From positions 1,116,001-1,180,000 of the forward strand of contig NZ_JONU01000007.1 of assembly GCF_000711985.1 (NCBI RefSeq): 64,000 nt of DNA, given 5' to 3'. The notes beneath the pieces are model-generated. The model was not told the DNA's origin, searched no databases, and saw only the letters and a program-made list of their open reading frames with translations. Source of the stretch: Rheinheimera texasensis DSM 17496. GTDB lineage: Bacteria; Pseudomonadota; Gammaproteobacteria; Enterobacterales; Alteromonadaceae. Of this stretch, positions 61,971-64,000 are shown piece after piece (within the stretch, counting starts at the first letter, position 1; every line of letters begins with the position of its first letter). Made by a program: the position numbers and the translations under genes.

Positions 61971-62214
61971 TATTCTCTGATATTTTTTTGATTTTTTTCT
62001 ACATTCCTGCCTCGATTTATACCAGCCAAACCTTTGTCCAGGCTTGAAATTCGGCCTGAATAGCAGCCCATAACCGGTTTGATAAAAATCTGATAATGCT
62101 GGTTCAGCTTGCTGTGGCAGGTTATTCCGGATTGAACAAATCATTCTCTTATTGTTATTAATATGTTGCGTCTCAATGTGGCGCTGAACTTAAAAACAAT
62201 GAAAGGAGATACAA

Positions 62215-62337
62215 ATGGATCTGATGATCGAGGCAGTCAATGCGCTGGGGAACTTTGATGTAGCAATGTTTGATCCGCAAGTACTGGATCCGGTTTTTGT
62301 GATTCCAATCATCATCATTCTGACCAAAACTTTATAA
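62215..62337 (+). CDS. 40-residue peptide of unknown function (possible precursor)
   Basis: Short frame with a very strong ribosome binding site AAAGGAGAT six bases before the ATG. The N-terminal half (MDLMIEAVNALGNFD) is amphipathic and acidic. The middle has FDPQVLDPVF with two Asp-Pro pairs, and the C-terminal part VFVIPIIIILTKTL is very hydrophobic. It carries no Cys and no signal peptide. It begins a same-strand group with two unknown genes. A peptide precursor, a small membrane-associated peptide or a leader peptide are all possible. Coding strength is inferred from the ribosome binding site and context alone. Confidence 0.6.
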   Translation: MDLMIEAVNALGNFDVAMFDPQVLDPVFVIPIIIILTKTL

Positions 62338-62405
62338 GTCGCGCAGGGGCCGACAGTGTATCGGTCGGTCCCTGTATCCGGGCAGTTTTAAACAGAGAGC
62401 TGATT

Positions 62406-63125
62406 GTGAATTTTATGCAGATGTCGATTGCACAGCTGGTGCATTGGTTTGAACAGGCATTGCAGAGCGGCACTTTCCCTTATGTTTCGATGGAAGCCGG
62501 CTCTTTTGTGCTAAGTGAAAGCACCGCCGAGCGTACATTGCTTTACATGGGGCGCCGGCCTTTTCAGGGAACTTTACAGACGTTGGGTCCATTACAGGCC
62601 AGAGTACTGGTTGGCGAAGTTGAGCTGGAGCAGGTCCGATGCGAGGCGGTCATGACCTCGACACAAATCCATTACCGTTGTTGTAGCCCGCAGGTTGAAC
62701 GCCAGAGCTTTGATGCTGGCTCAGCCTTTAGTCTGGACGCCTGGCAGGCGGCGGATTTTAGTTGTAGCACGGACGCGCTGCTGATGTTGCATTTCAGCAA
62801 GTCAGAAAACAATCGCCATCACCTTTGCTTTGACAAGCAGAGCCTGCAACTGAGTCGGGTTTCGTTGCGCTCACATCAGGACGCCCGGCTGTTTAATTTT
62901 ATTGAAGTGCTGGCGCGTTCAAGCAGTGAACGCAGTGCAAAATTACTGCAACAGCTCACAATGTCTGCCGTGCCGGAGATCGCCTGGCGTGCTTTGGAAG
63001 GCGTCTCTGCCCGATCTCCACAGCAGGCCATGGCCTTATTGCAACAATATGCTCAGCATCATCCATCTGCTCTGATATCGCAGCGGTCTGCTCAGGTGCT
63101 GAAACCGACACAAGGTGTTTACTGA
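62406..63125 (+). CDS. Unknown protein, cluster gene 2
   Basis: 239-residue protein with no signal peptide. The N-terminal part (about 1-140) looks beta-rich with several Cys (VRCEAVM, YRCCSPQ, DFSCSTD). The C-terminal part (about 155-235) is all-alpha and resembles HEAT-like helical pairs (RLFNFIEVLARSSSERSAKLLQQL, quoted in words: two helices broken by SSSER). No family recognised. It starts with GTG 68 bases after the peptide gene and its stop overlaps the ATG of the next gene (TGATG), implying coupled translation. ATG codons at 62415 or 62421 are alternative starts. Confidence 0.75.
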   Translation: MNFMQMSIAQLVHWFEQALQSGTFPYVSMEAGSFVLSESTAERTLLYMGRRPFQGTLQTLGPLQARVLVGEVELEQVRCEAVMTSTQIHYRCCSPQVERQSFDAGSAFSLDAWQAADFSCSTDALLMLHFSKSENNRHHLCFDKQSLQLSRVSLRSHQDARLFNFIEVLARSSSERSAKLLQQLTMSAVPEIAWRALEGVSARSPQQAMALLQQYAQHHPSALISQRSAQVLKPTQGVY

Positions 63126-63829
63126 TGGCGGTCATTTTTCAGTATGAAGCTTTACCTGCCATAGGCCTGATTGAATTTATCAGGCAGGTCAATGCCATCT
63201 ATACAGGCCCACACCAATTAGAGCCACAAATGATTGGCCGTCTGGCTCAGTTACTCGGCAAGCTTGCCGCTGACAAACACTGGTTGACGGATCATTTGTG
63301 TGATGTGTTAGAGCATGAATTCGCCGGGCAGTCTGCGGGCAACAGTTATGGCAATGATGCATTAGTGATTTACAGCCAGCAGGAACCGTTCTTCCAAATC
63401 CGGGTTTGTTTCTGGCACCCACGGCAAGCGGTCAAACAGGCTCAGGAAAAATATGATGTATACCAGTGTCTGCACGACCACAACTTTGGTTTTCTGACCA
63501 CCAATTATTATGGGCCTGGGTATGTGTCCCGGTTTTACCGATATCAGTACCAGGATGATTTGATGTGCGGCAGTCCAGTGCCACTGGCTTTGCAATTTGA
63601 ACATCAGCTCAGCCCCGGACAGATTGTCTGGTACGAACCCAGTGTCGATGTGCATTTACAGCACCCACCACAGGCATTCAGTGTGTCACTCAATCTGATA
63701 TTTGAAACCAATGAAAATAAACAATTTGTGTTTGATGCCAGCAACCAGCGGGTGGATCAGGTGGTGTATAGCAGCCATCAGCTGGCGTTGCAGTTCTGCC
63801 GCCAGTTTTTGCAAACTTTCACGGTTTAG
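63125..63829 (+). CDS. Cupin-fold, cysteine-dioxygenase-like protein
   Basis: 234-residue soluble protein. CLHDHNFGFLTTNYYGPG (about residues 115-132) contains an HxH pair followed by a Gly-rich turn, and SVDVHLQHPPQAFSVSLNL (about 177-195) supplies a third His followed by a Ser-x-Ser-Leu strand. This is the two-motif layout of cupin metal sites, most like the three-His cysteine dioxygenase type. If functional it would bind iron and could oxidise a thiol or a peptide side chain. Sequence similarity is motif-level only, so the assignment is tentative. Translationally coupled to the gene upstream. Confidence 0.6.
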   Translation: MAVIFQYEALPAIGLIEFIRQVNAIYTGPHQLEPQMIGRLAQLLGKLAADKHWLTDHLCDVLEHEFAGQSAGNSYGNDALVIYSQQEPFFQIRVCFWHPRQAVKQAQEKYDVYQCLHDHNFGFLTTNYYGPGYVSRFYRYQYQDDLMCGSPVPLALQFEHQLSPGQIVWYEPSVDVHLQHPPQAFSVSLNLIFETNENKQFVFDASNQRVDQVVYSSHQLALQFCRQFLQTFTV

Positions 63830-64000
63830 TCTGCTTATTGTTTTGCTGGGTACATCGGGCTGTTCAGTGCTGGGGCAAGCCGCTAAAAGCACGTTACAGG
63901 GCACTACGGCTACCTGGAAGTTGCAGCCGGTGGCTGTACGGAATTCTTATCCGGATTGGGTGCGTAGCGCTTATTACAGTGCGGAATTATTGTTGTCTGA
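63735..64000 (+). CDS. Lipoprotein, N-terminal part (partial)
   Basis: An open frame runs off the window end. It contains K-L-S-R, a hydrophobic stretch and a lipobox GTSGC near 63849-63863, followed by SVLGQAAKS, a clear lipoprotein signal. The true start is not obvious: the in-frame ATG at 63735 would overlap the cupin gene by 95 bases and give a long leader, while no ATG, GTG or TTG sits just before the charged residues. The mature part begins with a Thr/Ala-rich tract and WKLQPVAVRNSYPDW. Possibly part of the cluster that starts with the peptide gene. Confidence 0.45.
   Translation, partial: MPATSGWIRWCIAAISWRCSSAASFCKLSRFSLLIVLLGTSGCSVLGQAAKSTLQGTTATWKLQPVAVRNSYPDWVRSAYYSAELLLS

Follow-up and report, generated by a model that had tools for sequence, protein, structure and literature searches.

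A short peptide gene conserved beside a predicted three-histidine cupin and its paralogue: a candidate RiPP-like pathway in Rheinheimera texasensis

Cupin proteins of other kinds have been described in the RiPP literature (PMC12257519, PMC10783134, PMC9426513). The JmjC cupin-like hydroxylases PbsQ and BpmG (PMC12257519) and the cupin-4 proteins found with NHLP precursors (PMC9426513) place a cupin protein in a peptide cluster, as in the locus reported here, but those proteins are JmjC-related or cupin-4, whereas ours has HxH rather than HxD/E. JmjC/2OG hydroxylases in general carry an HxD/E...H facial triad. The MNIO (DUF692) RiPP systems share with our locus an iron-oxygenase candidate, a non-catalytic partner and a short precursor (PMC12257519); unlike them, our candidate enzyme is predicted to have a cupin fold and not a TIM barrel (PMC12257519), and its partner is a predicted pseudo-cupin with HEAT repeats and not an RRE. 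In predicted fold and 3-His pattern the candidate enzyme resembles the thiol dioxygenases (cysteine, mercaptosuccinate and 3-mercaptopropionate dioxygenases; PCO/ADO), from which it differs in having no CDO_I match and in being encoded with a pseudo-cupin and a peptide, most of these peptides lacking Cys. PnpCD hydroquinone dioxygenase, a cupin enzyme of two subunits, one of them without metal, appears among the structural matches of the partner, but its substrate is aromatic and no peptide is involved. Darobactin is exported by the MacB/HlyD-type DarBCD, and its pathway uses a radical SAM enzyme; unlike in that system, an exporter does not adjoin our unit. We found no description of this system in the open-licence literature searched, and absence there is no proof of novelty.

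The window (the whole stretch of DNA analysed, 64,000 nucleotides) ends with a core set of merely three short genes and a lipoprotein-like frame, laid out as follows:

62202 to 62208, + strand: Shine-Dalgarno sequence AAAGGAG of the peptide gene (read from the sequence)
62215 to 62337, + strand: putative precursor peptide, 40 aa, with a hydrophobic C-terminal segment (selection, shared block)
62343 to 62375, + strand: stem-loop between the peptide and partner genes, without a T run (shuffle test)
62406 to 63125, + strand: partner, predicted pseudo-cupin barrel plus HEAT repeats, 239 aa (model, profile homology)
63125 to 63829, + strand: 3-His cupin with a predicted cysteine-dioxygenase-like fold, 234 aa (model, invariant residues)
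63735 to 64000, continuing to 64493, + strand: lipoprotein-like ORF, start codon uncertain (frame, lipobox-like LGTSGC)

A sequence-only reading had described a tiny gene with a strong ribosome binding site, two coupled genes without recognisable family, HDH and DVH motifs of cupin type, a peptide with no Cys and a very hydrophobic tail, and a lipoprotein. All but the last held in full. AAAGGAG lies 6 nt 5′ of the peptide ATG; the partner gene starts with GTG, and its stop overlaps the cupin start as TGATG at 63125. None of the three window proteins is named by Pfam or NCBIfam, a HEAT_2 match in the partner falling below the curated cut-off, and the cupin and peptide members scanned are likewise unnamed by Pfam, NCBIfam, PADLOC and PHROGs. 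The motifs are at residues 117-119 and 175-177 of the cupin, and the window peptide lacks Cys and has the tail DPVFVIPIIIILTKTL. The lipoprotein held only in part: the frame continues past 64000 to the window-equivalent position 64493, contains the lipobox-like LGTSGC and has homologues directly after the cupin in 6/7 Pseudoalteromonas loci (that of L015 is a fragment at a contig end; in the seventh, L016, the match reaches just E 0.013), but no sensibly placed ATG, GTG or TTG with a Shine-Dalgarno sequence before it was found in the window frame. The Pseudoalteromonas homologues begin beside the end of the cupin gene.

The 40-residue ORF is a real gene under purifying selection, because the window peptide and its counterpart in a second genome of the genus (G018) differ with dN 0.048 against dS 0.71. 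A similar peptide with the block LDPV(F/L)VIPIII is encoded in all seven Pseudoalteromonas loci, and this C-terminal block is nearly identical between the two genera. Several Pseudoalteromonas peptide pairs differ mainly at synonymous positions (12 synonymous to 1 nonsynonymous for L017/L020, 12 to 2 for L017/L019); L015/L016 is a counter-example, with 10 nonsynonymous and 4 synonymous differences. The possibility of a chance ORF beside ordinary genes has nothing to recommend it beyond the small size of the gene, and these tests of conservation and selection refute it so directly that it can be all but discarded.

Many relatives encode peptides of what we call the sphingomonad type. We sought homology between the window type and this type and could not show it (hhalign prob 0.8): against a best shuffled control of 8.3 bits, the sphingomonad peptide HMM gives the window peptide 2.0 bits and the peptide of G1005 26.1 bits. 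Among 57 peptides matched by this HMM, the C-terminal half is hydrophobic (mean best-12 Kyte-Doolittle value 2.29, versus 0.92 in the N-terminal half) and Cys occurs in 15, most having none. Sphingomonad-type peptides keep an N-terminal LPxLxT..G..GS and vary more in their tails, several peptides having glycine-rich ones; in the window type, the hint of a leader and core is limited to the shared DPVFVIPIII block. Some related clusters add features that the sequence-only reading did not foresee, namely transporter genes (described below), tandem precursors and, in one genome pair, a double-glycine-type leader. Three precursors stand in tandem in L070, and the tandem precursor-like peptides of L070 and L061 have a like N-terminal motif and differing tails. 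In G958 and G933 the leader ends in VSGG, followed by GIPPFIGYQEPPIEEL; such an ending is a double-glycine site. In L061 and L070 the several precursor-like peptides accompany two tandem cupin systems.

A single-sequence scan of genome contigs and a two-row alignment scan of viral contigs each found no relative. With a four-row cupin alignment, the genome contig scan returned 345 candidate stretches and 332 relatives, and we kept and read 80 loci: 62 sphingomonad-type (our own classing), 7 from Pseudoalteromonas, 4 from Photorhabdus, 3 from Legionella, and one each from Tahibacter, a Herbaspirillum MAG, Streptomyces and the G020 record. Relatives are also found on plasmids of Alteromonas stellipolaris and of a Vibrio. 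Profile searches detect the cupin in 2/22 genomes of the genus (3/22 when G018 is counted through its partner gene), 9/246 of the family, 5/394 of the order (four-row profile) and 14/398 of the phylum; it is carried by 55/149 genomes of family f51, which we take to be Sphingomonadaceae from organism names among the scan relatives. These prevalence counts hold at the E stated for each search and include the own genome or centre. Readings of the unit as a phage defence system or as phage-derived were rejected.

Within the genus, RND pump, peptide and partner are all retained in G018, whose contig then ends. G020 has a peptide ORF in the equivalent place (matched by position, not by the peptide HMM), a partner and a cupin that is 30% identical to that of the window; BLASTP finds no similarity between the two partners (E 1.5).

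The three genes are conserved together. An adjacent upstream partner ORF accompanies 89/91 cupin genes, the partners of L047 and L057 having been missed by the partner-finding rule, and at E 1e-3 the partner profile, itself built partly from these ORFs, recognises 84/90 of them. L013, which has an in-frame stop, was left out of the cupin and peptide counts and included among the 90 partner ORFs. Cupin and partner distances correlate at 0.913 over 81 pairs (Photorhabdus and L013 left out), with a null maximum of 0.164 over 500 permutations. A peptide matching the HMM lies upstream of 73/91 cupin genes, this being the union of 54 found with a Shine-Dalgarno filter and 59 found without it; an opposite-strand control gave 0 hits for the filtered search alone, the unfiltered search having no control. 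Conservation of a short precursor gene with the other genes, a criterion for RiPPs, is thus met, and the finding that would have refuted the sequence-only reading, a peptide not conserved with its neighbours, did not occur, by these counts and by the selection described above.

The remaining 18/91 cupin genes have no upstream peptide by HMM, and they include L079, which is truncated upstream. By eye, a peptide is seen in L023 and L014/L096, is likely in L048 and is doubtful in L082. The misses comprise the 3 Legionella loci, the 4 Photorhabdus loci (8 genes), L054 and the Vibrio plasmid. On that plasmid, a 59-aa ORF overlapping the cupin 3′ end was considered and rejected; it is not clearly equivalent to the peptide, and the sphingomonad HMM does not report it. 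The Photorhabdus loci (L050, L051, L053, L060) have two tandem cupins behind a protein of 605-651 aa, which has a C-terminal HEAT match in the one scanned (L050), and no peptide was detected in them; L060 also has a KAS III-like gene near the unit.

The 63125 protein is predicted to carry a cupin barrel with HxH...H, as in the 3-His thiol dioxygenase superfamily. Its AlphaFold2 model, made from the alignment of its own loci, is of high confidence (pLDDT 90.9, pTM 0.86) and thiol-dioxygenase-like; Foldseek places mercaptosuccinate dioxygenase at the top (E 5.1e-7, TM 0.56 by query), followed by human cysteine dioxygenase and 3-mercaptopropionate dioxygenase. Sequence evidence for this relationship is thin. 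A weak profile alignment with cysteine dioxygenases (prob 10.9) puts HDH and DVH on their HDH and the region of the third metal His, in a common HDH...DVH...SVSL register, but two of the nine ORFs behind the alignment (L100, L102) were wrong and its score is rough. No match to CDO_I or another cupin family was found at E up to 1 (44 members), PDB sequence searches gave no meaningful relative of the barrel, and a CDO_I profile search found 0/59 genomes of the order and 9/150 of the phylum. In many members the C-terminal part is longer and carries HEAT matches (HEAT_2 in 12/44).

H117, H119 and H177 are present in 91/91 cupins examined, as are R93, W97, Y133, Q179 and S188. The 80 kept loci were retrieved with a search pattern covering the HDH region, which in part selects for H117 and H119 and thereby for their invariance; the other six residues fall outside the pattern. 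A third His off the metal site, the other finding that would have refuted the earlier reading, did not occur: H177 is invariant, sits on strand 175-180 of the confidently predicted fold and aligns weakly to the cysteine dioxygenase His, a placement resting on fold position and that weak alignment without model distances. Beyond the three His, 11 more columns are invariant in a 44-row alignment, Met 1 included. These invariant residues, with enzymes as the nearest folds, suggest catalysis; activity itself is inferred. A JmjC/2OG hydroxylase was rejected, residue 119 being His in 91/91 (again partly selected by the search pattern); Cupin_8 and Cupin_4 are not among the families matched by the cupins. 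An MNIO was likewise rejected: both models are cupin barrels, and DUF692 is absent from the 13 Pfam families matched by cupins and the 17 matched by partners.

We considered whether the substrate of the pair is a small thiol or another metabolite, with the peptide as a regulator (leader peptide or attenuator). The closest folds are indeed small-thiol dioxygenases, and 8/12 gammaproteobacterial loci have a stable stem-loop behind the peptide gene (at most 9/300 shuffles as stable; in the window, z -3.2 and 3/300 shuffles equally stable), a comparable one being absent in L015, L016, L021 and L011. Against this stand the amino-acid selection on the peptide and its nearly identical block in two genera, the fact that the peptides can be tandem, and the gap of only ~15-20 nt between peptide and partner genes in many sphingomonad loci, which is too little for an attenuator. 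We regard this explanation as unlikely.

The second gene, which the sequence-only reading left without a family, is a paralogue of the cupin (profile comparison prob 97.0, E 8.8e-11). Its AlphaFold2 model (own-locus alignment; pLDDT 91.0, pTM 0.76) has strands in residues 33-154 and then helices in 157-232, and 3-hydroxyanthranilate, ergothioneine and PnpCD dioxygenases are among its Foldseek matches. In the PDB, the partner profile finds designed alphaRep proteins and phycobilin-lyase chains through the HEAT part, with one weak match elsewhere. The partner has no conserved His column, the maximum being 35 His in any column of 81 rows. We describe it as a pseudo-cupin plus HEAT repeats without a conserved metal site, as predicted by the model.

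The layout of a short peptide beside a possible iron oxygenase had been read as RiPP-like, and this is supported; actual modification, the metal and the function of the peptide are not. The explanation we favour, with moderate confidence and no modification shown, is a RiPP-like pathway with a tailoring enzyme of 3-His oxygenase fold and a catalytically dead partner. The short peptide would be the precursor. The 63125 protein would be an O2-using non-heme iron enzyme with a thiol-dioxygenase fold and a 3-His site, iron being inferred, and the 62406 protein a metal-free pseudo-cupin/HEAT partner that may bind or present the precursor, a function also inferred. The proposed target of oxidation by the pair is the peptide's aliphatic C-terminal segment (DPVFVIPIIII in the window subfamily); both the oxidation and the residue are inferences. 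Where relatives have complete clusters, a MacB/HlyD-type exporter would carry the product out, and an ABC-2 transporter may serve export or self-protection; secretion in the window genome is inferred.

Several points count against this reading. No modified peptide is known, and the cupin in 55/149 genomes of f51 is more than is usual for an accessory antibiotic. Detectable homology between window-type and sphingomonad-type peptides is lacking, as is the peptide by 18/91 cupin genes; further counter-points are the nonsynonymous excess of L015/L016, the dissimilar G020 partner, the weak cysteine dioxygenase alignment and the absence of an adjacent ABC exporter. A less probable rival, close to the sequence-only reading's alternative of a small membrane peptide with its handling proteins, is that the peptide is membrane-active (microcin-like) and stays unmodified, with cupin and pseudo-cupin handling it or giving immunity to it and the 3-His site being structural or a sensor of iron or oxygen. 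The hydrophobic C-terminal half of the 57 HMM peptides, the glycine-rich tails of several and the ABC-2 transporter genes near some relatives fit this rival; the 11 invariant columns beyond the three His and the enzymes as nearest folds, which suggest catalysis, argue against it, as does the fact that HEAT repeats alone could hold a peptide.

The RiPP-like reading has a bolder form, to which we give no better than an even chance: an unrecognised RiPP class of alpha- and gammaproteobacteria and of at least one Streptomyces, whose 3-His oxygenase of thiol-dioxygenase fold and catalytically dead cupin/HEAT twin form a heteromeric pair that modifies an aliphatic peptide segment without 2-oxoglutarate or radical SAM chemistry. 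If true, this would be a new enzyme class for peptide natural-product chemistry, with the architecture of small-molecule thiol dioxygenases, plus a dead twin, recruited to ribosomal peptides. The pair and peptide would also give a handle for mining hundreds of genomes with unknown products.

Transporter genes are linked to the unit in some relatives. The Alteromonas plasmid (L008) carries Yip1, HlyD and MacB parts and two small peptide ORFs, of which the HMM matches one, as well as the partner, the cupin and parts of an ABC-2 transporter. G1005 (L134) has peptide, partner and cupin, an ABC-2-like ATPase and permease, and then a membrane protein, an adaptor and MacB parts; its second ATPase reaches 227.7 bits with the NCBIfam DarD model, whose cut-off is 375, and slightly more with LolD (233.2) and MacB (231.4), again below the cut-offs. 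G1001 has three partner-cupin pairs along with two small peptides, set amid transporter genes that were identified by eye from their translations, and G247 an ABC ATPase gene near the unit, also by eye. Two sets of ABC-transporter-like genes lie within 26 kb in L132/L133 (G1001:C1:340000-366000). No transporter or protease is among the top neighbour clusters of the 62 sphingomonad-type loci, where antisense ORFs in GC-rich DNA blur the clustering, and no dedicated ABC exporter adjoins the window unit, an RND pump alone being recognised.

Another reading is a stress module, toxin-antitoxin or other, in which the hydrophobic peptide is the toxin; a small hydrophobic peptide beside larger partner genes would fit it, as would the sporadic occurrence in the genus (3/22). 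We consider it very unlikely: there is no PADLOC match (the three window proteins; cupin and partner of L094), and variable tails and transporter linkage fit it poorly.

The RND pump is also found in genomes of the genus without the unit. Among eight other RND loci, G017, G019 and G011 have the RND gene and then a catalase-like gene with the unit absent between them, G013 has a 2OG oxygenase gene and then a catalase-like gene, in G018 the unit is in place, and no reference gene showed up at the remaining three. Either some members of the genus gained the unit or others lost it. After the unit, at L002:5097-5819 (window-equivalent 65096-65818), we noted by eye a putative 2OG-Fe(II)-like oxygenase and, at L002 5946-6923, a catalase-like gene, which in three further species of the genus is the neighbour of the RND gene. 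In L136/L137 (G958, G933), a long ORF that by eye is nonribosomal-peptide-synthetase (NRPS)-like lies a few kilobases from the unit.
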